Positions 19,986-39,842 of a stretch of 59,054 bases of DNA are shown in pieces. This stretch comes from Sanguibacter inulinus (GTDB taxonomy: Bacteria > Actinomycetota > Actinomycetes > Actinomycetales > Cellulomonadaceae). The position numbers and the translations under genes are program-made. The DNA is taken from NCBI RefSeq assembly GCF_013415325.1, contig NZ_JACBYE010000026.1, positions 1-59,054 on the forward strand. Direction: 5' to 3'. The notes under the pieces are model-generated. The model worked only from the letters and a program-made list of their open reading frames with translations. It did not search any database and was not told the origin of the DNA. Numbering within the stretch: position 1 is the first letter of the stretch; each line of letters starts with the position of its first letter.

Positions 19986-22571
19986 TCAGTCGACCGTGAC
20001 GGCCTCGAGCACCGGCAGCCGTGCCGCGCGGATCGCCGGCCACGCCGCCGCGAGCACACCGACGACGACCGAGATGCCCAGCATCACCGCGAGACCACCC
20101 CACGGGACGACGAGCTCGGTCAGCCCGGAGCTCTGGAACACCGTCGGCATCCCCGCGGCGAGCCCGACGCCCACGGCCAGCCCGAGGACTGTGCCGAAGA
20201 CCGCCGTGAGGACCGACTCGATGGTGATCGTCGCGGCGAGCTGCGCCCGGCCGAGGCCCACGGCCCGCATGAGGCCGATCTCGCGGGTCCTCTCGATGAC
20301 CGACAGGGCCAGGGTGTTGACGATGCCCAAGATCGCGATGACGATCGACAGCCCGAGCAGCGCGTAGAGGATCGTCAGCACCTGGTCCACCTGCGCCGCG
20401 AGGGACGACACGAACTCGTCGTTGTCCATGACCGAGACGATCATGTACGGCTTCGCGGCTGCGGTCACGGCTGCGTCGAGGTCGGCCTGGGAGACGCCGT
20501 CTGCTGCCTGCAGCAGGACCATCGTGGCCATGTCTGCAGGACTCGAGGCGAGCTGGTCGAAGATCGAGTCCGCGACCAGGAGCGGGGTGCCCAGGGCCGG
20601 GGAGTCGAAGACCGAACCGATGGTCACCTCGACCTCGCCGACCTGCGTCGACAGGGTGAGGCTGTCTCCGAGCGCCCAGCCGTTGGACGTCATGGCTGAC
20701 TTCAGCACGCTGACCTGACCGTCAGCAAGGGTGTCGAGATCACCCTCGACAGCCTCGGTCGCCCAGCTGCGGTCGAAGACGCCAGGGTCTGCGCCGAGGG
20801 CGTAGAGGCTGACGGGGTCACCCCCGGAGGCGTCCGTGACGAAGTACTGGTCGAGCAGCATCGCGTCTGCGGCACCGACCTCGGGCAGCGCGTCGATGTC
20901 GGAGACGACCCCGGCGGGCAGGGTGCCCGTCGCCGACTGGACGATGAGGTCGGCACGCGACTCGTTCTCCACGATGCTGCTGACCGACGACTGCGCTGAC
21001 GCGGCGAGGACCGAGGCGGCCCCGACGAGCGACATGCCGATCATCAGTGCGCTGGCCGTGCTCGCCGTCCGGCGAGGGTTGCGGGTCACGTTGCCGGACG
21101 CGAGCTTCCCGAGAGGCTTGACGAGCCAGACGAAGGGCAGCGCCATGACGCGCAGGACGGGCTTCGCGATGGCCGGCGCGAGCAGCAGCACGCCCACGAC
21201 GACGGCGGCTGCGCCGATGCCGAGGATGCTCCCGGTGCTCGCCGTGTCGTCCCGGGCGGCGGTGACGACAGCCGCGATGACGGCGCTCGCCCCTGCGCCG
21301 GCGACGACCAGCCCGGCGATGGTGCGGACCCGCAGCGAGGCGCTCTGGGCCGGGGAGTCGTCCCGCATCGCCTCGACAGGCGCGACGAGCGCCGCACGCC
21401 GGGCGGGCACAGCCGCCGAGAGGATGCTCACGACGATCCCGAGCACGAGCGAGATGACGACCATCGAGGTCGAGACCGGCACGCTGCCCGCGAGCTCCAT
21501 GCCCATCGAGGCGAAGAGCGCCTTGAGCGCGAGGACCAGCCCGAGACCACCGGCGACCCCGAGGGCGCCGCCGATCGCCCCGACGACAGCCGCCTGGACG
21601 AGGATCGACACGAAGACCTGGAGCGGTGACGCCCCGACAGCCCGCAGCAGCGCGAACTCCCGCTGACGCTGACGGACCGTCATCGCGAAGGTGTTGGAGA
21701 TGATGAACCCGCCGACGAACAGCGAGATCCCTGCGAAGACCAGCAAGAAGGTCTCCACGAAGCCGAGCATGGTCGAGATCTCGTCGCGGGCCTCCTCGCG
21801 GGCCGTCTCGCCGGTGACGACCTCGACGGGCGCCGCGTCGGTGGCACCGGCCGCCGGCTGGACTGCCGCGTCGACGCGCTCCGCGAGTGCCGTGTCGTCG
21901 ACGCTGCCGTCGCCGAGGACCGAGATGGTCGAGACCATGCCGTCGGGCGAGAAGGCCGCGGCAGCCGTGGCCTCGTCGAAGAACACGATGGTCGCACCGG
22001 CCATCGAGGTACCCATGTCGACGATGCCCGTGAGCGTCGCCTCCGTGAGCTGCCCGCCGACGACGAGGGTCGTGGTGTCACCGACTGCCAGGCCCGTCGT
22101 CTCGAGCGCACCGGCCTCGAGCATGAACTCCCCAGGCCCGCTGGGGGCGGTTCCCTCGGAGATCGGCGTCGCCGGGTCGTCGGCGTACCAGGCGAGCCCG
22201 AAGGTGGGTGCGCCCGTCGTCGGCGGCACCGTGCCGTCGGCCCCGACGAGCACGAGCGGACCGGTCAGGTCGGCGAAGGCGTGGGCGACGCCGTCGACCT
22301 CCGCCACGGTGGTCACGAGGTCGGCAGGGATCGTGTTGCGGACGGCCCCGGCGCTCGCGTTCTCCTGGACGAGGGTCGAGACGTCGTCGGCCCCGCGCAG
22401 GTAGACGTCGGAGGAGGTGCCGGCGTCGACGATCCCGTCGAAGGTGTCGGACAGCATCTCGCGCAGCGAGAAGGTGCCTGCCACGAAGGAGACGCCGAGG
22501 ACGACGGCGAGGATGGACAGCCCGAGGCGGACGAGGTGCGCCTGGACGTTGCGCAGTGCGACGCGGAGCAT
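19986..22571 (-). CDS. FtsX-domain ABC transporter permease
   Basis: An 861-residue permease of the MacB/LolE superfamily. It begins with a membrane helix and a MacB_PCD-like periplasm-facing domain, then a first FtsX domain (three helices, about residues 265-400), two linker helices, a second extracytoplasmic domain and a second FtsX domain (about 740-850). This duplicated layout is typical of Gram-positive exporters of peptides, lipids or antibiotics. Its ATG overlaps the stop of the ATPase gene by ATGA, so the two are made together. Confidence 0.9.
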
Positions 22572-23550: not shown

Positions 23551-25131
23551 CTATACGTCGAGGTCGCTGCTGAAGCGGCGCTTGGCCCCGGGCCCGAGGT
23601 CACGCGGGTCCGAGACCGTCGTGGTGAGGACAGGACGTCCCAGCAGCGCGGTCAGGGCTGTGTCGAGCGTGCTGAGCCCGGGCTGTGCGGGCACCGTCGC
23701 CACGGTGGGAGGCGTGGCCCGGGTCGGCAGCGCGGCGAGGTGGATCGTGCCGTCCGCTGCCTGGTGCAGGTGCCAGGCGGCGAGCCCGTAGGCCTGCAGC
23801 AGCTGGGTGGTGTCGACCGACGGGACCCAGCGGCCGTCGGCCGTCTGGAAGCGGACGGCCGCCCGACCCTCGAGCCCGACGAGGACCGTCGCCCAGGTCC
23901 CCTCGGCATCGCGCTCGCGGACGAGGGCAGCGGTGTCCCCGGTGCGGTACCGCAGCAGCGGGAGGTACGGGTTGTCGTCGACCGTGACGACCACGTCGCC
24001 CCGCTCGCCATCGGGGACCGGCGTCCCGTGCTCGTCGAGGATCTCCACGTGGACGCGGCGCGGCAGGACAGTGTGGCGCGTCTGGCCGTCCGTCGTCCGG
24101 TCCCCGGTGAGGTCTGCGGCGACGAGCCCGGCCTCGCGGGTGCCGTAGACGTCGACGACGGGCACTCCCCACCGCTGCTCGAGCCGTCGCCGTGCCCCCG
24201 GTGCCAGGTGGGCGGCGCCGGAGAAGACGACGAGAGGGTGCAGCTCGATGTCGAGGTCGGCGAGGGCGAGGAGCGACAAGGGGTTGCCGCTGAGCACCTG
24301 GGCGTCGGCGTCGGCGAGGAAGGCCTCGCGGTCACCGGGTGCGCGCCAGCCGTCAGGGTGCACGTTGACGCGGGCCATCGGCGCGCCACCCTTGGCCGTC
24401 AGGGCAGAGGCGTAGGTGAAGGCCGTGCGCTGGTCGACGACGTTGAGCAGGCACGTGCGTCCAGGCTCGGCCTCCCAGGTCACTCCCGCCCGGGCGGCGA
24501 GGTCGGTGAGGTAGACGACCTCGGCGGCGGTCGAGAGCGGGTGCAGCGGCACGACGAGCGCGGCCCCGGTGCTGCCCGAGCTCGACCCCTCGAGCACCCT
24601 GTCGAGGGGGACGTCGACGGGGACGAAGTCCGCGACCCCGCGCCCCAGGTCGTCGCGGGAGACGGGTGCTACGTCGTCCAGGCTGCGGGGTGCTCGGCCC
24701 TCACGGCGGGCGAGCGACCTGTAGTGCGGGACTGTCGTCGAGACCCGCTGCACCAGCTCGTCGACCCACCCGGGGCGCGCCCACACCTCACCCCTGGGCT
24801 CCCAGGACCTCTGTGCTGCGTCGGCGGCGCGCTCTCGCAGCACCGGGAGGTCGTCGGGCATCACCCTGTCGCCGCAGACGTGCACCCACGCGGGGGCGTG
24901 CGGGTGGTCCCGCAGGGCCTGCATCCCCGCGAAGCCCTCGGCCGAGAGCGACGGCCACCGTTCCGTGTCGGTGAGCGCGACGGCCGAGAAGGCCTCGTAC
25001 TCGGCGAGCGCGGGGTCGGGGACACCGCGGGGGAGGGCCTTCAGGTCGGGCCCGGCTGGGGAGGTGCGCTGGGGAGGGGCCGCTGACGGTCCGTTGGCGT
25101 GCGCGCCGGTGATGTCCTGGTCCTCAGACAT
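23551..25131 (-). CDS. Adenylate-forming enzyme (phenylacetate-CoA-ligase-like)
   Basis: A 526-residue member of the ANL/AMP-binding superfamily, closest in layout to PaaK-like ligases. The phosphate loop SSSGSTGA is at residues 183-190, the adenine motif YGTREAG near 318 and the ribose-binding YRTGD near 385; a short C-terminal cap follows. Such enzymes activate a carboxylate as an acyl-AMP, usually for transfer to CoA or another acceptor. It is the last of five overlapping genes with a MoxR ATPase and a zincin-VWA protein, an unusual setting, so a role in tagging or modifying a target is possible. Its start overlaps the previous gene by eight bases. Confidence 0.8.
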   Translation of the reverse strand: MSEDQDITGAHANGPSAAPPQRTSPAGPDLKALPRGVPDPALAEYEAFSAVALTDTERWPSLSAEGFAGMQALRDHPHAPAWVHVCGDRVMPDDLPVLRERAADAAQRSWEPRGEVWARPGWVDELVQRVSTTVPHYRSLARREGRAPRSLDDVAPVSRDDLGRGVADFVPVDVPLDRVLEGSSSGSTGAALVVPLHPLSTAAEVVYLTDLAARAGVTWEAEPGRTCLLNVVDQRTAFTYASALTAKGGAPMARVNVHPDGWRAPGDREAFLADADAQVLSGNPLSLLALADLDIELHPLVVFSGAAHLAPGARRRLEQRWGVPVVDVYGTREAGLVAADLTGDRTTDGQTRHTVLPRRVHVEILDEHGTPVPDGERGDVVVTVDDNPYLPLLRYRTGDTAALVRERDAEGTWATVLVGLEGRAAVRFQTADGRWVPSVDTTQLLQAYGLAAWHLHQAADGTIHLAALPTRATPPTVATVPAQPGLSTLDTALTALLGRPVLTTTVSDPRDLGPGAKRRFSSDLDV

Positions 25132-25810
25132 GGCTCACCTGCGCCGCGGCCTCGCGGGCGCGCTTCTCGGCGAGCGCCCTGTTGAGCTCTTCGGTGCGGC
25201 GGGCCTCTTCGGCGAGCTGGGCGAGGACGAGGCTCTGGATCGCTGTGCTGACGGTCTGCCACCGGGCCTCGGCGTCGACGGCGGTCTCGTCGCCGGGGTG
25301 CAGGCCGCAGGCACGCAGCACGGCGCGCGCGGCCTCTTCGCGGGTGGCCGTCGTGCTCGGCCACGTGGAGGGCTCGAGGACCGGGGCGAGGACCGTCGAC
25401 AGGCGCGAGATCGCCGTGAGGGCCCAGTCGGTCGTGGCCTCTGGTCCCGTGAGCACGTCTGCGAGGACCGGGGTGCGCCGCAGAGCGGGGTCGGCCAGCA
25501 CCCAGGAGGTGATCAGCGCGGCGCGTGCGCGCTGGTCGCCGAAGCCGCCCGGGGCCGAGAAGAAGGTCCGCAACCAGGCGATCTGCTGCTGGGTCCGCAC
25601 ACCCCCCGGGGCGAGGTCGGCGAGGGTGTCGGAGACGACCGCGGCGGCGTCGACGTGCGCGCGGCCGGGTCGTGGGCTGCCGTCGCCGAGGGCACCGACG
25701 GCTGGCAGCCTGTCGGCGGGGCTCTGGGCGATCCGCTGCATCACGGTCGCGAGCGTCGGGCCGGGGCGCAGCGGCTGCGCGGGGTCGACGAGCCCGTCTC
25801 GTACGGTCAT
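25124..25810 (-). CDS. Unknown protein of the MoxR/zincin-VWA operon (228 residues)
   Basis: I do not recognise a family. It is an all-helical, soluble-looking protein without signal peptide or Cys clusters. The middle contains Trp-rich helices (TRTQQQIAWLRTFF-like, SRLSTVLAPVLEPSTWP) and the C terminus is a charged coiled coil (RTEELNRALAEKRAREAA). The ATG overlaps the VWA gene stop as ATGA, and its own end overlaps the ligase gene. Translational coupling suggests a complex with its neighbours. Confidence 0.7.
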   Translation of the reverse strand: MTVRDGLVDPAQPLRPGPTLATVMQRIAQSPADRLPAVGALGDGSPRPGRAHVDAAAVVSDTLADLAPGGVRTQQQIAWLRTFFSAPGGFGDQRARAALITSWVLADPALRRTPVLADVLTGPEATTDWALTAISRLSTVLAPVLEPSTWPSTTATREEAARAVLRACGLHPGDETAVDAEARWQTVSTAIQSLVLAQLAEEARRTEELNRALAEKRAREAAAQVSHV

Positions 25811-27717
25811 GCGTTCTGCCCCCAGAGGGTCCGGGCGAGGTCTCTCGCGAAGGGGACGACATCCTCCCAGGCCGACACCGTGTAGACGGCGTAGCCGGGA
25901 GCCATGTCGACGTAGCGGTCGGGTGGTCCTGCGACGTTGAGCACGAGCGATCCTCCGCCGCCGGCGGCCCGGACCGCTCGGGCCGCGCTCGTGGTGAGCG
26001 GCTCGAAGTCCTCGGGGAGGCTCCAGGCCCCGTCGGCGAACATGCTCACGACCCCGCTGTCCGAGATCACCGCGATGTGCCGACGCCGACGCCGGCTCCG
26101 GGCAGGGCTGCCCGCGCTCGCGGTGTTCCCTGCGCTCGCGGTGCTCCCGGTGCTCGGGGTGCGGTCGGCCTCGTCGAGGTGCGTCTGCTCGAGCAGCTGG
26201 ATGGGGAAGGACGTGCTCCCGCCGAAGTACGCGACGACGGCTGACATCACGGCTGTCGCGTCCCGGGTGAAGCCGTCGGTCCCGGCGATCTGCCCGGGAC
26301 CGCTCCAGGTGGTCGCCTGCACGCGCGCGCCGCTGCGCAGGGCAGAGAGAGCGAGGACCGCGCCGGCCAGCGCGATCGGGGCAGGCTGGTGGCGGGGGTC
26401 GGGCATCGAGCCTGAGGAGTCCAGGTACAGGTCGAGGTCGACGGGCTGGTCGTCGGTCTCGGTCGAGGTGGTCGAGTCGAGGTGGCGCTGGACCGTCGTC
26501 ATCCCGGGCACGACGACGGGTGAGGCGAGCATCGTCGCGGTCCAGTCGACGTCGGCGAGGTCGTCGCCCGTCTCCCACGGGTCGAGGCCGCCGAGCAGCG
26601 TCTCGGGAGCCGCGGGTGTGGCTGTCGTCGGGAAGGGGACGAGGTGGCGGGCTGCGTGCTCCCGGTACCAGGCGATCGCCGCGGACTCGGGCGAGGTCGC
26701 GACCCCGAGCGACTGCAGCACGGCCGCGTAGTCGGCCGGGGTGAGCGTGTTCCCGGCGCTCTGGGACGCGACGGGGTCGCGCTGCAGCCCAGTCTGCGGT
26801 CCAGGGGTCGGCGAGGTCGAGTCCTCGCGTGCTGCGAGGGTGCCGACGACGCGTGGGTCGAGTGCTGGGTGGACGGGTGGGCGGAGGGCGTCCGAGGCTG
26901 TCGCCAGCCCGGGGACTGGCGTCCCCGGGTGCTCGTGCTGGGCGCAGGGCAGGTCGACGACGGTCTGCCCGCCGCCGCTCCCGGTGTCCCGTGCCAGGAA
27001 CGGACGCAGGACCATGGCGAAGCCGCCGGCGCCGGCTGCGGGGTCGTCGGCGTAGGTCCGGACGAGCCTGGCGAGCACCTGTGCCTCGGCGTCAGCGTGC
27101 GGCCCGGGTCCGCTGAGCGTTGCCGCGGGGAGCGACCACAAGATCTCGTCCGTGCGCAGCAGGAGAGTCATGACCTCTCCCTGCGGCGGACCGAGCCTGC
27201 GCCACAGCCCGACCATGTCGATCCCGGCGCGGGTCTGCAGCCTGTCGTTGATGAGCATGTCCGACCACAGGTTGGTCACCAGGCCGGCCCGGTGGTCCAG
27301 GTCGACCAGCCCCAGGCGGACCTGCGCCGTCATCCGGCCAGCCGTGAGCATGTCGGCCGGGGAGTAGACGTGGTGGCCGATCTCGTGCGCGAGGACAGCC
27401 ACGGCGTGGTCTTCGATCCCCTCTGCGAGCACCTGCTCGAGATCGATCGACACCTCGACGTCTCCGAGGCTGAACCACGCGAAGCTCGTCGCCCCGCTCA
27501 CCTCGCCAGCGCCGTGGAGCCGCGGTGGCCGCAGGCGGGTGAAGCGGCCCCACGCGCCGAGCGCCTCGGGCCAGGCGGCCGTCCAGGCGGCCCTGAGCGC
27601 TGCATACCGTGCATCGTCTGGGCGGGGCGCGCGGGTGACGGGGAGCGGGAGTGCCGCCGGGACCGCAGGAGCCTGGTCGGCAGAGGTCCCGGTCCCGCGA
27701 CGACGACCGCCCCTCAC
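25807..27717 (-). CDS. Zincin metallopeptidase-VWA fusion protein
   Basis: A 636-residue protein with two parts. The N-terminal half has a metallopeptidase signature HEIGHH at residues 111-116, followed by the helix with NLWSDMLINDRLQ near 149-161. The C-terminal half is a von Willebrand A domain with a complete metal site: DSSGS at 433-437, the Thr of FGGSTSF and the Asp in AVISDSG. The layout resembles the DUF2201 proteins that pair with MoxR ATPases. The VWA domain should dock on the MoxR ring, which may unfold or present substrates to the protease-like half. The start is GTG at 27717, overlapping the previous stop as GTGA. Confidence 0.82.
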   Translation of the reverse strand: MRGGRRRGTGTSADQAPAVPAALPLPVTRAPRPDDARYAALRAAWTAAWPEALGAWGRFTRLRPPRLHGAGEVSGATSFAWFSLGDVEVSIDLEQVLAEGIEDHAVAVLAHEIGHHVYSPADMLTAGRMTAQVRLGLVDLDHRAGLVTNLWSDMLINDRLQTRAGIDMVGLWRRLGPPQGEVMTLLLRTDEILWSLPAATLSGPGPHADAEAQVLARLVRTYADDPAAGAGGFAMVLRPFLARDTGSGGGQTVVDLPCAQHEHPGTPVPGLATASDALRPPVHPALDPRVVGTLAAREDSTSPTPGPQTGLQRDPVASQSAGNTLTPADYAAVLQSLGVATSPESAAIAWYREHAARHLVPFPTTATPAAPETLLGGLDPWETGDDLADVDWTATMLASPVVVPGMTTVQRHLDSTTSTETDDQPVDLDLYLDSSGSMPDPRHQPAPIALAGAVLALSALRSGARVQATTWSGPGQIAGTDGFTRDATAVMSAVVAYFGGSTSFPIQLLEQTHLDEADRTPSTGSTASAGNTASAGSPARSRRRRRHIAVISDSGVVSMFADGAWSLPEDFEPLTTSAARAVRAAGGGGSLVLNVAGPPDRYVDMAPGYAVYTVSAWEDVVPFARDLARTLWGQNA

Positions 27718-28946
27718 GGCTGGTCCTGGGGGACGTCGTGAGAGGCGGCGCGAGCACGGTCCTCGCCTGCGCCGGTCCGCACGAGGTCGAGCCTGTACGA
27801 CGTCGCGCGGCTCACCAGGACCATCCCTGCAGTGGTGGCGCCCGCCCCGGTGACGGTGTCCTGAGCACCTAGGTGGGGTGCGACGGCGTCGACGAGCGCG
27901 GGGTCTGGCTGCACGGCCGCCAGCAGGCTGTCGAGCTCGGCAGCCGAGGTCGAGCGTCCCGCGCTCTCGCGCAGGACAGCGGTCCCGTGGACGTCGGCGA
28001 CGACCACCCAGACCTGGTCGTCAGCCGCGACCCGCCATGTCGGTGTGGCTGCCTCGACGGTCCCCAGGACGACCGGGACACCGACCCACGGCCCGCCGCT
28101 CCCACGGAAGCCGCCGACCTGTCCGGTCCGACCAGCCGCCGGGGCACCGGGCCACCAGAAGGGGTCTGCAGCGCTGCGCGCCAGGACGTCCCCCGGACTG
28201 CCCGTGCCGCGTCCCGAGCCCCGTGAGCCGGGCACCGCGGCACCTGCACCACGGGTCCCGGCTGCGCCGGAGGTCTCGCCGTCGGCGCCGCTAGCACCGC
28301 CTGCACTGCCTGCGCCGCCCGCGCCCAAGCTCTCACCGACTCCATCTCCAGCACCGTCTGCAGAGGAGCTCTCGTCGACGGCACCGGCCAGGTCGAGGAG
28401 CTGGACGAGAGCAGCATCGGGGAGCGATCCTGCAGCAGCGAGCGCCGCACCGCGTAGCCTCACGAACCCTGACCTCCAGGCGGCGACCGCAGCCGCCGCA
28501 CGCTGGGCGTCGTCGTCGTCGAGGTGCGCGTCGGCCGCGCAGAACCGACGGCCCCACTCACCGAGGTCGGCCCCTCGGGCGATGCGTCCGGCTCCCTGGA
28601 CGACGACGTCGACGGTCACCTTCGGTGAGCGGCCCATGGCACGGGGCAGGAAGGGGACGACCCCCAGGAGCGCCCAGCGGTCGGCCGAGGACTCGTGCCA
28701 CGCGCGACGCACGACGAGGGCGCTCGCAGCGTCGACGAGGACGGGCACGACCGCTGCGAAGGCTGACGGGTCGCCCATGGTCCGCGCGAGGTGGTCGGCC
28801 CCCGGACCCATCTCGAGCAGGGCGGTGCGCAGCGCGTCGGCCGACGCGCCGGCGGACCGAGCGGCGGCGACGCGGGAGTTGAGGACGTCGCGCTGCGCGA
28901 CCAGCTCGCCCTGCCACGTGGGAGCGGCAGCCGTGGACTGGTCCAT
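27714..28946 (-). CDS. Unknown protein of the MoxR/zincin-VWA operon (410 residues)
   Basis: No family recognised. An N-terminal helical domain (residues 1-195, with RRAWHESSADRWALLGVV) and a C-terminal beta-rich domain (about 275-400, with WVGVPVVLGTVEAATP and DDQVWVVVADVHGTAV) are joined by a 70-residue Gly/Ala/Ser linker. By position it corresponds to the third component often seen between MoxR and VWA genes, sometimes a substrate adaptor. Its ATG shares one base with the MoxR stop (TGATG). Confidence 0.7.
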   Translation of the reverse strand: MDQSTAAAPTWQGELVAQRDVLNSRVAAARSAGASADALRTALLEMGPGADHLARTMGDPSAFAAVVPVLVDAASALVVRRAWHESSADRWALLGVVPFLPRAMGRSPKVTVDVVVQGAGRIARGADLGEWGRRFCAADAHLDDDDAQRAAAAVAAWRSGFVRLRGAALAAAGSLPDAALVQLLDLAGAVDESSSADGAGDGVGESLGAGGAGSAGGASGADGETSGAAGTRGAGAAVPGSRGSGRGTGSPGDVLARSAADPFWWPGAPAAGRTGQVGGFRGSGGPWVGVPVVLGTVEAATPTWRVAADDQVWVVVADVHGTAVLRESAGRSTSAAELDSLLAAVQPDPALVDAVAPHLGAQDTVTGAGATTAGMVLVSRATSYRLDLVRTGAGEDRARAASHDVPQDQP

Positions 28947-30589
28947 CACCGGTACCAGCGCAGCCACGTGAGGTAGTTGGTGTACCGCTGGTGCGCGTAC
29001 TTGAGCACGAGGGCGTCCTCGTAGACGTGGCCGTGCAGCTTGCCGGCGCCCTCCCACCCGGCGAGGATCTGCTCGATCCGGCGCATCCTGTCGAGCACGA
29101 CGTCTTCACCCAGGGAGTCGAGCCCCGCCTGTACCTGCTCGAGGACCTCGCCGACGGGGTCGTCCTGGTCCAGCCCGTACGCGTCGTACTGGGCGCACGC
29201 GTCGTCGAACATCGTCCGGATCCACGACACGCGGTCCGAGCGCAGCGGCTCGCGGTCGGCGTCGTCGAAGACCGTCGACTGCTGGTCCGGCACGAGCTTG
29301 TCGTGCAGCACGAAGGGCAGGACGGCGCGCAGGTCGTCGAGGCCGACGCTCGAGCGACCACGGAAGTAGGCCATCGCCTTCGCGTACGCCACGAGGGACT
29401 GCAGCGCCCGGACGGAGAGCCCGTTGAGGGTCTGGGCGCCGATGTCCGAGAGCTTGTCGCGCCCGGTGTCCGAGCTCGCCACGAGGTGCGGGTCGATCCC
29501 GGCGAGGCGCGCGGTGTCCTTCGTGCGGTACTCGAACTGCCACGCCGACCCCTCGAGCAGCTCGAGCTGGCTCGCGAAGAACTCGAGCCGTCGCCGGACG
29601 GGCCGCTCGATCTGCACGGCCGTGACCTCGCGGTGCAGGCGCTCGTGCTGCGCGTCGTCGAAGACGATCGACTCGGGCACGGCCCGCTCGGGGTGGATAC
29701 CCTGCTCGGCCCGCGCCACGAGGTCGCCGAGGAACCTGTTGTTGAAGGGCAGCGCGTGCACCACCACGTCGATGCGGTCCCGCAGCGCCTCGACCACCTG
29801 GTACGTGCCGCCGCCGGCGTCGTCGTTGGCGGTGAGGTACCAGGCGGACTCGCCCGTCTCGTAGAACTGGTCGAAGACCTCGACGTACCCGTCCGCGAGG
29901 ACCGTCAGCAGCGCCGACTGCGTGCGCGTCGGGATGCGGTTGTACTCGTCGACGATCTTCACGCGCATGCCCAGCCACGATCGCCAGGCGACGTCGACGT
30001 CGGCGAGCGAGTCTGCCTGCACGAGGTCCTTGGGCAACGGTGTGCCGAACATGTCGGAGACCGTGAGCTGTGGGTGACCGTGCTGCATCGCGCGGCGCAC
30101 GTCCTGGATCGGGTACCCGGCGAGCACGCCCATGAGCACGGCGCTCGCGGTCTTCCCGCGACCCGGTCCGCCGATGAGCAGGCAGCGTCCTCGCACGGCG
30201 AAGGTGAGCAGCGGCAGCAGCACGAAGCTCGAGTAGGACTGGTCGGAGGGCAGCGTGAGCAGCGCCTTCGAGTCGCCGAGCCTGAAGCTCGTCTCCGGGG
30301 TCCCCGGCCCCGCGGAGAACTCGACGTCGTAGTGCGGGGAGATGATCGCGTGGTTGACCACCCAGAAGTACGCCTGCCGCAGCTTCTCCGCGAGGTCTGC
30401 GTCCTGCGAGCCCTCTGTGGGGGTCGCCGTGCCGAAGAGGTCCGCGACGTCGAGGTCGTAGTCGCCCTGCGTGCTGGACGTCCCGCTGGGAGCCGGCCGG
30501 GTCGGCGCGTCCGAGACGTGCCCGAGGGGCGATGCTGGAGACGATCCGGACGAGGTCGCTGACGCGGGGCTGCTGGTGTGCTCTGTCAC
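28946..30589 (-). CDS. MoxR-family AAA+ ATPase
   Basis: A 547-residue ATPase, first gene of the five-gene operon. After a 45-residue disordered Ser/Pro-rich tail come Walker A GGPGRGKT (140-147), Walker B VKIVDEYNR (210-218), the MoxR-type RTQSALLTVLADG helix and sensor-1 region LTANDD. The C-terminal 200 residues extend beyond a plain MoxR lid. MoxR proteins are hexameric remodelling enzymes that act with VWA partners. GTG at 30589 (VTEHTSSPAS) is chosen because the open frame further upstream would translate the intergenic hexamer repeat as Ala-Arg. The transcript leader carries the (GGGCTC)n tract. Confidence 0.88.
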   Translation of the reverse strand: MTEHTSSPASATSSGSSPASPLGHVSDAPTRPAPSGTSSTQGDYDLDVADLFGTATPTEGSQDADLAEKLRQAYFWVVNHAIISPHYDVEFSAGPGTPETSFRLGDSKALLTLPSDQSYSSFVLLPLLTFAVRGRCLLIGGPGRGKTASAVLMGVLAGYPIQDVRRAMQHGHPQLTVSDMFGTPLPKDLVQADSLADVDVAWRSWLGMRVKIVDEYNRIPTRTQSALLTVLADGYVEVFDQFYETGESAWYLTANDDAGGGTYQVVEALRDRIDVVVHALPFNNRFLGDLVARAEQGIHPERAVPESIVFDDAQHERLHREVTAVQIERPVRRRLEFFASQLELLEGSAWQFEYRTKDTARLAGIDPHLVASSDTGRDKLSDIGAQTLNGLSVRALQSLVAYAKAMAYFRGRSSVGLDDLRAVLPFVLHDKLVPDQQSTVFDDADREPLRSDRVSWIRTMFDDACAQYDAYGLDQDDPVGEVLEQVQAGLDSLGEDVVLDRMRRIEQILAGWEGAGKLHGHVYEDALVLKYAHQRYTNYLTWLRWYR

Positions 30590-30696: not shown

Positions 30697-30768
<72 letters not shown>

Positions 30769-30803: not shown

Positions 30804-32030
30804 TCAGACCCCGCGGTCCGAGCCAGCCGGCGCCGGGGCTGTCGGGTCGGGCAGCGGGGCGCCGACCTCTTGGCCCTGCTGGTCCATCGGCGGGGCCACC
30901 CACCGCGGCACCGCGACGAGGGCGTCGACCAGGCGGACCGCCTCGGCGAGCCGCTCCGCCCGGGTCCCGCGGAGCTCGACCCACGGGGCGCCGCCGTCCT
31001 CCTGCGCGGCGAGCTCCTCACGGAAGCGCTGCTGCATGCCGTGCCGGATGTGCTCGCCGTCGCGCAGACCGTCCTGCACGAAGGGGATCTCGTCGCCGGT
31101 CAGCAGGTAGAGGTCGGGCACGCGTGAGGCCGCGAGCTCCTGCACGGACGGAGAGGGCGTCCCCATGTACCGCTCGTGCCACAGGGTCGTCGCGAAGGCG
31201 TCGGTGTCGCAGACCACGAGGGGGAGCGGGGTGGTCGCCGCGGCATGGTCCTCCATCCGGCTCTGCTCCCGGGCGATCAGGTCGAACTCGGCCGTGTGCC
31301 ACGGGGTCTCGAGCCCGCCCGGACGGACCTCGGACCACTCCCGCCCGAACTCCGGGACCGCGGGCAGCCCGTAGTGCGCCTGCAGGGCCTCGGCGAGGGT
31401 CGTCGTGCCCGTCGACTCCGCCCCGACCACCACCACCCGCCGCGCGAACCAGGCCCGCACGGCTGGCGGCAGCGCCCACCAGTGCGCCCCGGGGTCGGCC
31501 CGGACCGCCGAGCCGCTCACGGTCACCGCGGCACGGCCCGGGTCTACCTGGACCCACTCCGCGTCGAAGCGGCGTGCCATCTCGGCTCCGTAGACGTCCG
31601 AGGTGAAGACGGCGTCGACGGGGGCGCTGACCGAGCACCCGGGCACGCAGCCGGCGTCGAGCAGGTCCTTCATCACCTGGACGTGCGCCTGCCACGCGTC
31701 GTGGGACTCGTAGTCGACGGGTGCGTCGTCGAGCCCGGTGACGACGTGCGCGCCTGGCAGCTCGTCGCGCAACCACTGTGCTCGCAGGTCTGCCGGGATC
31801 GACTCCTGCGACGACCACAGCACCTGCACGGTGACGTGCTCGCACTGCGCCAGCGCCGTGCGCACGAGGTTCAGGTGCCCGGCGTGGACGGGGTAGAACT
31901 TGCCGATGACCAGGCCGTGCCGGAACCGCTGCCGCAGCCCCTGCTCCTCGACGGACGCCCCGTCAGCCCTGTCAGCACAGTCAGCACCGCGCGTCCCTCC
32001 CACGCTGCTCGTGCTCCGCCCGCCGGTCAC
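30804..32030 (-). CDS. nadR: NadR-type NMN adenylyltransferase / ribosylnicotinamide kinase
   Basis: A 408-residue bifunctional enzyme. The N-terminal domain has GKFYPVHAGH with the nucleotidyl-transfer HxGH motif at residues 49-52 and makes NAD from NMN. The C-terminal domain corresponds to nicotinamide riboside kinase, but its P-loop reads GAESTGTTT (203-211), with Thr where Lys is expected. It lacks the helix-turn-helix of enterobacterial NadR. The GTG start overlaps the pnuC stop (GTGA), so transporter and enzymes are co-translated: imported nicotinamide riboside becomes NMN and then NAD. Confidence 0.88.
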   Translation of the reverse strand: MTGGRSTSSVGGTRGADCADRADGASVEEQGLRQRFRHGLVIGKFYPVHAGHLNLVRTALAQCEHVTVQVLWSSQESIPADLRAQWLRDELPGAHVVTGLDDAPVDYESHDAWQAHVQVMKDLLDAGCVPGCSVSAPVDAVFTSDVYGAEMARRFDAEWVQVDPGRAAVTVSGSAVRADPGAHWWALPPAVRAWFARRVVVVGAESTGTTTLAEALQAHYGLPAVPEFGREWSEVRPGGLETPWHTAEFDLIAREQSRMEDHAAATTPLPLVVCDTDAFATTLWHERYMGTPSPSVQELAASRVPDLYLLTGDEIPFVQDGLRDGEHIRHGMQQRFREELAAQEDGGAPWVELRGTRAERLAEAVRLVDALVAVPRWVAPPMDQQGQEVGAPLPDPTAPAPAGSDRGV

Positions 32031-32653
32031 CGTGACGACCCCGGAGCCGGAGCACCGGGCCGAGGCTCGGCGAGGAGCGCGTCGTCCGCAGCCTCCGACC
32101 TGAGCAGCGCGACCTTCCAGTCCCGCAGCCCCAGCAGGCAGAGCCCGATGAATCCTGCGTAGAGCACGGCGGTCAGGTACAGACCCGACGACAGGTAGAG
32201 CCAGACGAAGATCACGTCCGCGACGATCCACACCACCCAGTTGCCGATCCACTTACGACCGAGCATGAGCTGCGCGACGAGGCTCAACGAGGTGGTCACC
32301 GAGTCGAGCCACGGGCTCGACGCGTCGGTCCAGGTGCTCAGCACCCAGGCGAGCAGCCCGACGAGGACGACCACGGTCACCGCGGCTGCAGGCCACACCC
32401 ATCGCGGGGTCCGGCGCACGGCGAGCGTGCCGCCACCGGTCCCTCCGCGGAGCCACCAGTACCAGCCGAGGCTGGCCAGCACGAGGTACACGACCTGGAG
32501 CCCCGCCCCGGCGTAGAGCCCCGTCGAGGCGAACAAGATGATGTAGACACCGTTGTTGACGATGCCGACGGGGAAGGTCCAGACGTTCTGTCGTACGGCC
32601 AGGTACACGCACACGGCACCGGTGACGAACCCGATGATCTCTTCGGCAGACAT
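32027..32653 (-). CDS. pnuC: Nicotinamide riboside transporter PnuC
   Basis: A 208-residue inner-membrane protein of the SWEET-like PnuC family with about seven helices. Landmarks are VRQNVWTFPVGIVNNGVY in the first third and the tryptophan-rich GRKWIGNWVVWIVADV near residues 140-157, which lines the substrate path. Facilitated uptake is driven by phosphorylation of the substrate by NadR, encoded by the overlapping next gene. Long open frame upstream of the ATG at 32653 is antisense to the dehydrogenase gene and is not used. Confidence 0.93.
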   Translation of the reverse strand: MSAEEIIGFVTGAVCVYLAVRQNVWTFPVGIVNNGVYIILFASTGLYAGAGLQVVYLVLASLGWYWWLRGGTGGGTLAVRRTPRWVWPAAAVTVVVLVGLLAWVLSTWTDASSPWLDSVTTSLSLVAQLMLGRKWIGNWVVWIVADVIFVWLYLSSGLYLTAVLYAGFIGLCLLGLRDWKVALLRSEAADDALLAEPRPGAPAPGSSR

Positions 32654-32703: not shown

Positions 32704-32764
32704 CTCGCGCGCCAGGACGCGACCCCGGCCCGCGCAGGCGTCCGGAGAGTGGTTGGCGCGCGAG
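32704..32764. promoter_or_regulatory. Divergent pnuC/dehydrogenase region with distant inverted repeat
   Basis: CTCGCGCGCCA (32704-32714) and TGGCGCGCGAG (32754-32764) are perfect 11-bp inverted arms 39 bp apart, in the 141-bp gap between two divergent starts. They could be two half-operators or the feet of a DNA loop. Confidence 0.35.
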
Positions 32765-32794
32765 GTCCTGTGCGGGCGGTGGAAGAATGCGCGT

Positions 32795-35719
32795 GTGGCT
32801 ACCCCGGTAGAGGTTGAGATCAACGGTCCCGACGGCACCCCGCGCACCGTCCGGTCTGCAGACGCGCACGCAGACCTCGTCGCGTCGCTCCGCAGAGCCG
32901 TCGACGGCGAGGTCTCCGACTCGACGCTCCGCCGTGCCGAGTACTCCTCGGACGCCTCCAACTACCGCGTCGTGCCGCAGGTCGTCGTGGTGCCCAAGGA
33001 CGTCGACGACGCGCTCGCGGCCATCACCGTCACCCGTGAGGCCGGTGTCCCGCTGACCACCCGCGGGGCAGGCACCTCGTGCGCCGGCAACTCTGTGGGC
33101 CCGGGCGTGGTGATCGACTTCTCCCGCCACGTCAACACGATCCACCACCTCGACGTCGAGAACCGCACCGCGCGCATCGACCCCGGCGTGGTCATGTCGT
33201 CCTTGCAGAAGGTCGCCGCGCCGCACGGCCTGCGCTTCGGCCCCGACCCGTCGACCCAGAACCGCGCGACCCTCGGCGGCATGATCGGCAACAACGCCTG
33301 CGGTCCGCACGCCGTCGCCTACGGGCGCACGGCCGACAACGTCGTCGAGCTCGACGTCGTCGACGGCCTGGGCCGCCGCTTCACAGCGGGGGCCGACGGT
33401 CGGGGCGTCGACAGGGTGCCCGGGCTCGGCGAGCTCGTCACCACCAACATGGCCCTGCTGCGGACCGAGCTCGGCCGCTTCGGCCGCCAGGTGTCCGGCT
33501 ACTCCCTCGAGCACCTCCTGCCGGAGAACGGCACGAACCTCGCCAAGGCCCTCGTCGGGACCGAGGGCACCGTCATGTCGATCCTCGGGGCGACGGTGAA
33601 CCTCGTGCCGATCGCCGGCGCCCCGACCCTCGTGGTCCTCGGCTACCCGGACATGCCGAGCGCGGCCGACGCCGTCCCTGCGCTGCTCACGCACTCGCCG
33701 CTCGCCGTCGAGGGCCTCGACGCCCGCCTCGTCGACGTCGTCCGTCGCGCCAAGGGCGCAGGCTCGGTCCCCGAGCTGCCGCCGGGCGGCGGCTGGCTCA
33801 TGGTCGAGGTCGGCGGCACGACAGCCCAGGAGGCTCTCGCCAACGCCGAGGCGATCGTCCGTGACTCCGGCACGACCGCGACCCGCATCCTCCCCGCAGG
33901 TCCCGAGGCGACGGCCATGTGGCAGATCCGCGCCGACGGCGCCGGGCTCGCCGGCCGCACGCCGTCTGGCGCGCAGGCCTGGCCCGGCTGGGAAGACTCG
34001 GCGGTCCCGCCCGTCCACCTCGGCGCGTACCTGCGCGACCTCGACGCGCTCATGGCGCGGTACGGCGTCGACGGTCTGCCCTACGGCCACTTCGGCGACG
34101 GCTGCGTGCACCTGCGCATCGACATCCCGCTCGAGGCCTCGGGCGACGTCCTGAGGTCCTTCATGACCGAGGCTGCTGCGCTCGTCGGCACCTACGGGGG
34201 GTCGCTCTCGGGCGAGCACGGCGACGGCCGCGCCCGCTCGGAGCTGCTGCCCTCGATGTACTCGGCCGAGGCCATCAGCGTCTTCGAGCAGTTCAAGGCG
34301 CTCTTCGACCCCCACGACCTGCTCAACCCGGGCGTCCTCGTGCGTCCCGACGCCGTCGACGCGCACCTGCGCCGCCCGGCCGCCAAGCCCGTCGCGCTCT
34401 CGGGCGGCTTCGGTTTCGGGCACGACGGCGGCGACTTCACCACCTCGGTCCACCGCTGCGTCGGCGTCGGCAAGTGCCGCGCGGACTCGACAGCCGCGGG
34501 CGGCTTCATGTGCCCCTCGTACCTCGCGACCAAGGACGAGAAGGACTCGACCCGTGGCCGCGCCCGCGTGCTCCAGGAGATGGCCAACGGCACCCTGGTC
34601 ACCGGTGGCTGGCGCTCGCCCGAGGTGCACGAGGCCCTCGACCTCTGCCTGTCCTGCAAGGCTTGCTCGAGCGACTGCCCGGCCGGGGTCGACATGGCCC
34701 AGTACAAGTCCCAGGTGCTGCACGAGTCCTACAAGGGCCGGCTGCGTCCGATGAACCACTACGTGCTCGGCTGGCTGCCCCGCTGGGCGCACCTCGCGAG
34801 CCGCATGCCGCGGCTGGTCAACCTTGCGCTGAGCGTCAAGCCGCTCGCGAAGCTGTCGCTCACCATCGGCGGCATGGACACCCGACGCTCGATCCCGTCC
34901 TTCGCCGACGTGCCCTTCCGCACCTGGTGGAAGCGCCAGGGCGCGGCAGCAGCCGCCGGCTCGCGTGCCGCGGGCACCACGAGCGAACGCCGCAAGCCCA
35001 AGGTCGTCCTGTGGACCGACTCCTTCAGCGACTCCCTCGCCCCGTCGGTCCCCGAGGCCGCCGTCAAGGTGCTGCTCGCTGCTGGCTACGACGTCGTCGT
35101 CCCCGAGGGCGAGGCCTGCTGCGGTCTCACCTGGATCAGCACGGGACAGCTCGACGGCGCCAAGAAGAAGCTGTCGACGCTCCTCGACACCCTCGGTCCC
35201 TTCGCCGTCAACGGCGTGCCCATCGTCGGCCTCGAGCCGTCGTGCACAGCCGTGCTGCGCTCGGACCTGCTCGACCTCTTCCCCGACGACCCGCGCGCCC
35301 ACGCCGTCTCGACAGCCACGCACACCCTCGCCGAGCTGCTCACCGACCCGCAGACGCGCCCGGCCGAGGACTCCGGCTGGGCCGTGCCCGACCTCTCCGA
35401 CGTCACGGCCGTCGTGCAGCCGCACTGCCACCAGTACTCGGTCATGGGCTACAAGACCGACGAGGCCCTGCTCGTCGGGGCCGGCGCGAAGATCCGTACC
35501 CTCGCTGGCTGCTGCGGCCTCGCCGGGAACTTCGGCATGGAGAAGGGCCACTACGACGTCTCGGTCGCCGTGGCTGAGAATGCGCTCCTGCCCGCTCTGC
35601 GAGAGGCTGAGGAGGGCGACGTCTTCCTCGCCGACGGATTCTCCTGCCGCACCCAGGCCGACGACCTCGCCGGGGTGCAGGGCAAGGCGCTCGCCGAGCT
35701 CCTCGCCGACAGGCTCTGA
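32795..35719 (+). CDS. FAD-linked oxidase with C-terminal Fe-S domains (GlcD/D-lactate dehydrogenase type)
   Basis: A 974-residue respiratory-type 2-hydroxyacid dehydrogenase. The N-terminal half is FAD_binding_4 (TTRGAGTSCAGNS, NRATLGGMIGNNACGP) plus FAD-oxidase_C (LPYGHFGDGCVHLRID, SGEHGDGRAR). The C-terminal half has a ferredoxin-like pair of clusters (CVGVGKC and CLSCKACSSDCPAGVD) and two CCG-type motifs (EACCGLTW and AGCCGLAGNFG). The electron path is hydroxyacid to FAD to Fe-S to quinone. The substrate is probably D-lactate, glycolate or 2-hydroxyglutarate. GTG at 32795 gives the N terminus VATPVEVEING; a GTG at 32753 is also open. Confidence 0.92.
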   Translation: MATPVEVEINGPDGTPRTVRSADAHADLVASLRRAVDGEVSDSTLRRAEYSSDASNYRVVPQVVVVPKDVDDALAAITVTREAGVPLTTRGAGTSCAGNSVGPGVVIDFSRHVNTIHHLDVENRTARIDPGVVMSSLQKVAAPHGLRFGPDPSTQNRATLGGMIGNNACGPHAVAYGRTADNVVELDVVDGLGRRFTAGADGRGVDRVPGLGELVTTNMALLRTELGRFGRQVSGYSLEHLLPENGTNLAKALVGTEGTVMSILGATVNLVPIAGAPTLVVLGYPDMPSAADAVPALLTHSPLAVEGLDARLVDVVRRAKGAGSVPELPPGGGWLMVEVGGTTAQEALANAEAIVRDSGTTATRILPAGPEATAMWQIRADGAGLAGRTPSGAQAWPGWEDSAVPPVHLGAYLRDLDALMARYGVDGLPYGHFGDGCVHLRIDIPLEASGDVLRSFMTEAAALVGTYGGSLSGEHGDGRARSELLPSMYSAEAISVFEQFKALFDPHDLLNPGVLVRPDAVDAHLRRPAAKPVALSGGFGFGHDGGDFTTSVHRCVGVGKCRADSTAAGGFMCPSYLATKDEKDSTRGRARVLQEMANGTLVTGGWRSPEVHEALDLCLSCKACSSDCPAGVDMAQYKSQVLHESYKGRLRPMNHYVLGWLPRWAHLASRMPRLVNLALSVKPLAKLSLTIGGMDTRRSIPSFADVPFRTWWKRQGAAAAAGSRAAGTTSERRKPKVVLWTDSFSDSLAPSVPEAAVKVLLAAGYDVVVPEGEACCGLTWISTGQLDGAKKKLSTLLDTLGPFAVNGVPIVGLEPSCTAVLRSDLLDLFPDDPRAHAVSTATHTLAELLTDPQTRPAEDSGWAVPDLSDVTAVVQPHCHQYSVMGYKTDEALLVGAGAKIRTLAGCCGLAGNFGMEKGHYDVSVAVAENALLPALREAEEGDVFLADGFSCRTQADDLAGVQGKALAELLADRL

Positions 35720-38643: not shown

Positions 38644-38735
38644 CATGGACCTCCGCCGTGCAGGTCTGGTCTTGCTCCACCCACGAGGGTCCCACGACCC
38701 TGTCGCCGTGAGGTCGGGATCGCTACCCTGTGGGG

Positions 38736-39842
38736 ATGCCCCTGTTCGACCTCGAGGGTGGCGCGCGCGCCGAGCCCGTGACGACGATGCGCCCTGACGA
38801 CGCCTCGTTCGGGCAGGTCCTCTCGGTCGTCCTCGAGCACCTCCCGACGCTGCTCGGCGAGCGGCTCTTCATGACCCTCGAGCGTGAGGCGGCTCCGGCC
38901 GCCCTCGGTGATGGTGCCGCGACGGTGCTCGCGATCGACGCCGCAGGCGACCCGGTGGTCGTCCAGGCCGTGCCGCTGCTCGCCGCCCAGCATCTCGTCG
39001 TCGCGCTCCGAGGTGCCGGACGGGCCTCGGGGATCACCCGGCGAGCCTTCGCCGCGTCCTATGCCCAGGGGCCCGACAGGTTCCACCGTGACCTCGCCGC
39101 GTTCTTCGACCGGGACGGCGCACCGCGCGCGACGGGATCAGGCCGCACGGCCCGCCTGGTCCTGGTCTGCTCGGAGATCGACGACGACGCTGTCGAGGCG
39201 GTCTCGTTCCTCTCGGTCGACGCCGCGCGGGTACAGGTCCTCACGGTCGGGGTCGTCGAGGGGGCGAACGGTCGACGTCTGCTCGACGTGTCGTCCTTGC
39301 GGCCCGGAGAGCTCGGGGCCCGTCAGACGGTCTCGCTCGACCTGAGCACTCCCGGCGCCGACCTTGACGTCCGCCCGCAGGCGCCAGCCGAGACGACGTC
39401 CGCGCCTGGCCAGAGCCCCGCCGAGGCGCAGCCTCTCCATGCCTTCGGACGCAGCGGCCCGCAGCCAGCAGGGCCGGGTCCAGCGCCCCGGCGTGAACGT
39501 TCCTACCCGGTCTACGACTCGCCCCCGCAGGACGGTGAGCCCGTCGAGACGAGCGCCGCGCCCCCCGTCGACGCCCGGCTCGCCCTCGTCGCGCGCACCC
39601 TCCAGGAACCGCTCGACCTCGTGTGGGTCCGGCACCGCCGCGGCGAGCGTCTCGAGGTGGTCCTGGGCCTCGACGGTCTGCTGCACGCCCCGGACGGCGC
39701 GAGCTTCGGCGACCCCGACGCAGCCGTGCAGGCGCTGTCCGGCTCGTCGTCCTCGAACGGCTGGCGGGTCTGGCGCGCGGGCGAGGCAGGACCGAGCCTC
39801 GACGAGCTCGTCTCAGAGGCTCAGGAGTCCGACCAGCCGTAG
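38736..39842 (+). CDS. RAMA-domain protein with degenerate nuclease-like N terminus
   Basis: A 368-residue cytoplasmic protein. The last 75 residues match RAMA, a domain from restriction systems thought to read modified DNA (GLDGLLHAPDGASF, then DPDAAVQALSG and the terminal NGWRVWR). The N-terminal 180 residues recall NucS/DUF91-like PD-(D/E)XK folds (VLAIDAAGDPVVVQAV, then ALRGAGRASG), but the catalytic E-x-K is not visible. A Pro-rich linker separates the halves. A -10 box TACCCT (38724-38729) six bases before the ATG supports this leaderless start. The 3' end overlaps the convergent hydrolase gene by 22 bp. Confidence 0.72.
   Translation: MPLFDLEGGARAEPVTTMRPDDASFGQVLSVVLEHLPTLLGERLFMTLEREAAPAALGDGAATVLAIDAAGDPVVVQAVPLLAAQHLVVALRGAGRASGITRRAFAASYAQGPDRFHRDLAAFFDRDGAPRATGSGRTARLVLVCSEIDDDAVEAVSFLSVDAARVQVLTVGVVEGANGRRLLDVSSLRPGELGARQTVSLDLSTPGADLDVRPQAPAETTSAPGQSPAEAQPLHAFGRSGPQPAGPGPAPRRERSYPVYDSPPQDGEPVETSAAPPVDARLALVARTLQEPLDLVWVRHRRGERLEVVLGLDGLLHAPDGASFGDPDAAVQALSGSSSSNGWRVWRAGEAGPSLDELVSEAQESDQP

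Follow-up and report, generated by a model that had tools for sequence, protein, structure and literature searches.

Gene organization of the locus

The window analyzed here, a 59,054-nucleotide stretch of Sanguibacter inulinus DNA (contig NZ_JACBYE010000026.1), contains five overlapping leftward genes at positions 23551 to 30589. They are predicted to encode a MoxR-family AAA+ ATPase, a 410-amino-acid partner protein, a zincin metallopeptidase fused to a VWA domain, a small helical protein, and a PaaK-like AMP-forming (ANL) enzyme, referred to below as the ligase. This five-gene cassette is a real conserved module, undescribed in the literature searched (most subscription papers lay outside the scope of that search). 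Reading frames and coordinates bore out the positions given in an earlier note on this DNA. The junctions that it had claimed, TGATG (MoxR/410-amino-acid partner), GTGA (partner/zincin), and ATGA (zincin/small protein), were read in the sequence, and the 8-bp overlap between the genes for the small helical protein and the ligase followed from the coordinates. The operon extent in that note was right for the five genes but missed pnuC and nadR at the operon head, and with these two genes the likely setting shifts to salvage of nicotinamide riboside (NR) and nicotinamide adenine dinucleotide (NAD). The features of the locus are as follows.

32027 to 32653, minus strand: pnuC, NR transporter, first gene of the operon (PF04973, E = 2.3e-49; TIGR01528 equivalog, 86.3 bits versus a cut-off of 42.45)
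30804 to 32030, minus strand: nadR-like gene, nicotinamide mononucleotide (NMN) adenylyltransferase and ribosylnicotinamide kinase domains (PF01467 under its Pfam cut-off, PF13521 [AAA_28] over its own; TIGR01526)
30697 to 30768, no strand: tandem repeat of the hexamer GGGCTC in the nadR-moxR spacer (from the sequence of the window's genome, end points set by eye)
28946 to 30589, minus strand: MoxR-family AAA+ ATPase, 547 amino acids (PF17863 and PF07726 above cut-off; motifs)
27714 to 28946, minus strand: 410-amino-acid partner, with a helical N terminus, a low-complexity linker, and a C-terminal beta part containing GGFxGxGGPW
25807 to 27717, minus strand: zincin (HEIGHH) with C-terminal VWA domain, 636 amino acids (motifs, profile and structure comparison)
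27370 to 27387, minus strand: HEIGHH metal-binding motif, amino acids 111 to 116 (HE[IVL]GHH in 42/42)
27241 to 27273, minus strand: NLWSDMLINDR helix, amino acids 149 to 159, with the probable third metal ligand (Asp) (motif and DUF2201_N alignment)
25822 to 26451, minus strand: VWA domain with metal ion-dependent adhesion site (MIDAS) residues, about amino acids 423 to 632 (structure matches, motifs)
25124 to 25810, minus strand: small helical protein, 228 amino acids, with a charged C-terminal helix (presumed coiled coil)
23551 to 25131, minus strand: PaaK-like AMP-forming (ANL) enzyme, 526 amino acids (PF00501 above cut-off; PaaK structures)

The pnuC and nadR genes overlap by 4 bp on the same strand upstream of moxR, and a gap of 214 bp that contains the GGGCTC repeat separates nadR from moxR in the window. 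The hexamer run lies near the expected ribosome-binding region of moxR, and its copy number may vary. For the 410-amino-acid partner, a GTG at 28949, one codon upstream, is an alternative start and would give a 4-bp overlap with moxR. Starts with this overlap were assigned in 36 of the 40 further loci, a count that leans toward overlaps because starts were picked nearest the preceding stop. No promoter or terminator was found by the scan for these elements, and a tRNA was the sole match in the Rfam scan.

Conservation of the cassette and co-occurrence with NadR

The first search of genome contigs for the zincin-VWA protein returned seven loci (Sediminihabitans, Cellulomonas, two mycobacteria, and three Nocardioides), and in each of them (7/7) the five genes follow the same order. 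A zincin profile of eight rows was then compared with 200 sampled genomes of the window's family and 396 of its phylum, and matched 36 and 18, respectively. Among the 18 phylum matches, the five genes were complete in the window's own genome and in genome G361. The other 16 (loci L093 to L108) were weak matches, several on short contigs, with a MoxR-like gene and with no 410-amino-acid partner, helical protein, or ligase detected by profile. Each genome search scored few first-look candidates (between 6 and 9 per genome for the family), and weak matches may escape.

After removal of two duplicate loci (L057 and L058), the five genes were found in identical order in 40 of the 41 loci besides the window. 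Six of the 41 lie outside the window's family, and the small helical protein was present in all 41. The exception, L072, lacks MoxR and the 410-amino-acid partner because its contig ends there; pnuC-nadR-moxR of the same genome lies on another contig, and the locus was kept with its missing genes scored as missing. The ligases of L074 and L077 are cut by contig ends.

At E ≤ 1e-30, the family genomes marked by a ligase profile were identical to those marked by the zincin profile (36 of 200). In the phylum sample, ligase scores fell from 665 bits (own genome) and 258 bits (G361) to 86 bits for the next protein, which is generically PaaK-like. In a sample of 198 Nocardioidaceae genomes the ligase was found in one, the query genome itself, and the co-occurrence is therefore not independently replicated in this sample. 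Across 39 loci, pairwise distances correlated among the five proteins at 0.84 to 0.95 (calculated without an unlinked gene as a control). Distribution of the cassette is patchy: G040 and G056, of the same genus, lack it. The five-gene recurrence exceeds chance. Membership of the ligase in the set, as the earlier note had it, is upheld by the gene order at the MoxR plus zincin-VWA loci and by the shared 36 genomes; the ligase is not adjacent in this genome alone, because all five recur, identically arranged, in 40 of the 41 further loci.

A search of the neighborhoods found a NadR match in 32 and a PnuC match in 31 of the 41 other loci. When the window and the 40 loci having MoxR were considered together, 33 of the 41 had a NadR that lies upstream of MoxR and in the same orientation. 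Of these 33 pairs, 12 overlap by 4 bp; in 20 the intergenic distance is 13 to 240 bp, and in the remaining pair it is 1.26 kb. The eight loci without an adjoining upstream NadR (L011, L015, L068, L080, L082, L083, L087, and L092) sit by other genes, for example mycobacterial def/GNAT/xthA-like genes or a P-type ATPase gene (names assigned by eye).

Across the 200 family genomes, NadR at E ≤ 1e-30 was detected in 35, comprising 34 of 36 with the cassette versus 1 of 164 without it. This threshold was loosened to 1e-10 after weak NadR proteins were found in G101 and G114, giving 38 genomes, with 36 of 36 versus 2 of 164 (G120 and G197). NadR and the cassette were significantly associated by genome (Fisher test at E ≤ 1e-10, P = 1e-37) and by genus (NadR in 7/7 cassette genera versus 0/18 noncassette genera, P = 2e-6), with neither test fully corrected for kinship. 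At E ≤ 1e-5, NadR was detected in each of nine genomes searched (weakly, at 33% identity, in G101 and G114). NadR was present away from MoxR in six genomes (G101, G114, G361, G595, G598, and G082), where PnuC shares the same stretch as NadR, either adjoining or about 3 kb away. In G101 and G114 (loci L137 and L138), the sole detected PnuC-NadR pair is divergent and its NadR lies about 2 Mb from the cassette, an apparent replacement of NadR.

Predicted proteins and comparison with known systems

The protein assignments of the earlier note largely held. The MoxR protein contained AAA_lid_2 (PF17863) and AAA_3 (PF07726) domains above Pfam cut-offs, and the motifs GGPGRGKT, [KR]I[VI]DEYNR, TANDD, L[KR]DR[IL]D, and SVR[AS]L were found in 41/41 sequences. 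For the zincin-VWA protein, no Pfam family exceeded its cut-off, VWA included; the fusion is instead evident from HE[IVL]GHH and the MIDAS residues (DSS[GA]S, T, and SD), each present in 42/42 sequences. An N-x-W-x-D-x3-ND helix motif occurs 36 to 44 residues downstream of HExGHH in 41 of 42 sequences, with Trp replaced by Tyr in L092 (NLYADLLINDR). The Asp of NLWSDMLINDR is the probable third metal ligand, since the two zincin motifs align with their DUF2201_N counterparts in a profile comparison. Judged by these motifs, the zincin site of the cassette is apparently active-looking. The distance from the second zincin motif to MIDAS was 261 to 323 residues. Structure comparison of residues about 423 to 632 of a low-confidence model returned chiefly VWA domains, NorD's among them.

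The ligase contained an AMP-binding domain (PF00501) above cut-off and matched PaaK structures (E = 1.1e-17), in agreement with the earlier assignment as a PaaK-like AMP-forming enzyme. Among the ANL motifs named A3, A5, A7, and A8, the A5 Glu, the A7 Tyr and Asp, and the A8 Gly-Arg were present in 41/41 readable sequences, and A3, which varies in spelling, in 41/42 (aberrant in L092). Two proteins of the cassette had no family match. The 410-amino-acid partner matched nothing in Pfam, NCBIfam, or PADLOC at E ≤ 1, and the model of a 313-residue orthologue (L010; predicted local distance difference test [pLDDT] of 78.3), with helices within residues 10 to 197 and strands within 210 to 310, had no PDB match at E ≤ 0.001, so that no known fold was found. 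The small helical protein matched nothing in Pfam or PADLOC at E ≤ 1 and reached only E = 0.62 in NCBIfam.

MoxR rings act on VWA partners, and such pairs include CoxD/CoxE, CbbQ/CbbO, and RavA/ViaA besides NorQ-NorD. As in NorQ-NorD, the MoxR gene of the cassette adjoins a gene for a partner with a C-terminal VWA domain and intact MIDAS, and the VWA part of the model is NorD-like. Unlike in pairs of the NorQ-NorD type, the partner carries an N-terminal zincin domain with intact HExGHH, three more conserved genes (one for an adenylate-forming enzyme) belong to the cassette, and the set is linked to pnuC-nadR.

A distant likeness was found to the DUF2201 (PF13203) metallopeptidase-VWA proteins, in which HExxH and NxAxDxxIND of DUF2201_N align with HExxH and NxxxDxxIND of the cassette (probability 74.5, E = 2.7e-5). 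This alignment came from a comparison with six DUF2201 sequences, which left out L130 and L131 (motif pattern not found); a single-sequence comparison aligned the VWA part only. DUF2201 proteins also occur beside a MoxR-type ATPase, and in L128 the frames for a DUF2201 protein and a MoxR-like protein overlap. In contrast to these proteins, the cassette zincin has no PF13203 match (hmmscan, E ≤ 1), and no PF13203 was found in the window's genome.

The two-gene units (f23/f29) at the 16 loci L093 to L108 resemble the cassette in having MoxR and a related VWA partner and differ in lacking, by profile, the 410-amino-acid partner, the helical protein, and the ligase (16/16, several on short contigs). 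HExxH of their zincin-like domain is replaced in 9 aligned of the 16, and they are possibly an inactive sister family.

The cassette ligase shares ANL core motifs with PaaK phenylacetate-CoA ligases and with the DVU_1553 family. Its scores lie far below the NCBIfam cut-offs for both (38 bits versus 646.3 for TIGR02155; 68.9 bits versus 300 for NF045666), and unlike those ligases it does not have a fixed C-terminal lysine.

Like the ternary MoxR-vWA conflict systems described in 2020 (PMC7159879), which likewise occur in actinobacteria, the cassette combines a MoxR and vWA core with further partners. In the available parts of PMC7159879 and PMC8195603, effectors of the ternary systems are C-terminal to vWA and zincins are only rare or inactive, whereas the effector-like domain of the cassette is N-terminal to VWA and the setting is one of NAD salvage. 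No ligase of the cassette type is named in those parts of the two papers, and the main text of PMC7159879 does not mention NadR, PnuC, phenylacetate, or acyl-CoA. A family search of both partner proteins recognized no third component of the VMAP, iSTAND, or TERNS3 kind, with no direct sequence comparison to VMAP or TERNS3 made.

Proposed function and alternative explanations

The cassette is read here as the last five genes of a seven-gene operon, pnuC-nadR-moxR-partner-zincin/VWA-helical protein-ligase, forming one module tied to NR/NAD salvage and working by the mechanism set out below, at a probability of roughly one-half. Co-inheritance itself is held more firmly than the mechanism. The unlinked NadR genes are the stronger argument for the tie, above all those of G101 and G114, because the only NadR detected there is about 2 Mb distant. 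The co-occurrence indicates that NadR function matters to cassette holders without fixing the direction of the link. The setting points to a process tied to NAD salvage and not to phage defense.

By analogy with NorQ-NorD, the MoxR ring would engage the zincin protein at the VWA domain. In the available part of a report on NorQD, the ring is described as twisting and stretching a linker of NorD (PMC13036017); a comparable ATP-driven pull or twist may act on the segment of roughly 280 residues that joins the zincin helix to VWA, and would thereby open or close the zincin site while a client is bound. The 410-amino-acid partner and the small helical protein could serve as adaptors. The PaaK-like enzyme would convert a carboxylate into an acyl-adenylate whose activated group is passed on to either the client or a small molecule, and PnuC and NadR would supply NMN and NAD for the pathway or recycle what it releases. 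Ring, zincin, and ligase may also modify a protein, as the earlier note suggested. An unreported pathway of NR/NAD metabolism, served by an ATP-driven MoxR/metallopeptidase machine and a dedicated adenylate-forming enzyme, is put forward tentatively and as less likely than not; for example, the client might be given an NR- or carboxylate-derived group, or NAD might be the adenylate donor, in which purely speculative variant the NMN released would be recycled by NadR.

Several observations weigh against this reading. The NadR-like protein scored 173.6 bits with TIGR01526 (E = 5.8e-51), below the equivalog cut-off of 341.15 although both domains are covered. Genomes G197 and G120 carry PnuC with NadR and no cassette, so NR salvage is possible without it. 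Kinship and the joint gain or loss of adjacent genes inflate the co-occurrence figures. The model of the zincin-VWA protein has a mean pLDDT of 44. The C-terminal Lys position of the ligase (A10) is Lys in 19 of 42 sequences, Arg in 10, Ala in 2, and unread by pattern in 11, of which two are cut by contig ends; the window ligase is of the Ala type, and adenylation by the ligase is not assured because this lysine is not fixed.

Part of the same evidence could be accommodated by a maturation machine built from MoxR and the VWA protein that inserts or exchanges a metal, or switches on one enzyme, as NorQD and CbbQO do. Its client would be the neighboring ligase or some NAD-linked oxidoreductase, and the zincin domain would carry a metal instead of acting as a protease. 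MoxR/VWA pairs have known roles in metal insertion and enzyme activation, according to the available part of PMC13036017, and the modeled VWA part appears to resemble that of NorD. The loss of HExxH from the two-gene relatives (in the 9 aligned of 16) implies that the fold can serve without peptidase chemistry, but HE[IVL]GHH is kept in all 42 cassette copies, a pattern suggestive of catalysis, and no metalloenzyme gene was found among the common neighbors; such a role is considered unlikely. It is less likely still that the linkage reflects history only, the seven genes having entered lineages as one stretch and been kept or lost jointly without joint function. As such a history would allow, cassette and NadR share a patchy distribution, both being missing from G040 and G056, and the five genes occur with no adjoining pnuC-nadR in G361 and at the Mycobacterium loci. 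A purely historical linkage fits poorly with the persistence of unlinked NadR, G101 and G114 retaining only the 33%-identical protein about 2 Mb away, and with the 4-bp overlap in 12 of 33 adjacent NadR-MoxR pairs; besides NadR, PnuC, and antisense frames, no neighbor cluster (clusters unlabeled) occurred in more than 9 of the 41 loci.

The earlier note had also raised a defense pathway, here formulated as a conflict system of the MoxR-vWA ternary style with the zincin as effector and NadR and PnuC refilling NAD. MoxR-vWA cores have been proposed as conflict machines, with rare metallopeptidase effectors mentioned in the available parts of PMC7159879 and PMC8195603. The cassette is patchily distributed, and a RAMA-domain gene at 38730 to 39842 (PF18755 above cut-off) has weak PADLOC matches (PDC-S11 and PDC-S14; E = 4e-4). 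Against this, the five proteins had no PADLOC match at E ≤ 0.05, and MoxR had no match in phage and plasmid collections (E ≤ 1e-10) or in one scan of viral contigs. No NADase was seen, and nothing effector-like appears C-terminal to VWA, which in the model reaches about residue 632 of 636. The ligase gave four partial matches in the plasmid collection, at 41% identity or less. Among ten flanking proteins compared with PADLOC, an ABC permease (19986 to 22571) weakly matched CARF-LolE models (E = 4e-7). With evidence absent or weak and none of these scans convincing, the defense reading was rejected as very improbable.

MoxR/VWA machines are widespread, and few have a known client. The cassette offers a fixed five-gene partner set, a zincin that is apparently active as judged by its motifs, and a pathway that can be manipulated by feeding NR, and this combination makes a client search practical. 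In the literature searched, PnuC, NadR, and MoxR occurred in no common paper, no paper joined MoxR, phenylacetate-CoA ligase, and von Willebrand, and nothing described this gene set; if the tie to NAD salvage is correct, this would be the first MoxR/VWA system in that literature with a link to either NAD salvage or an AMP-forming ligase.

Two further genes of the window lie beyond the operon. A divergent gene directly upstream of pnuC (32753 to 35719) encodes an FAD-linked oxidase fused to an Fe-S domain and adjoins the cassette in only one other locus (L064). The open frame at 43028 to 53833, roughly 3600 codons long and unusually G+C-rich at second codon positions, perhaps encodes a large surface or secreted protein.

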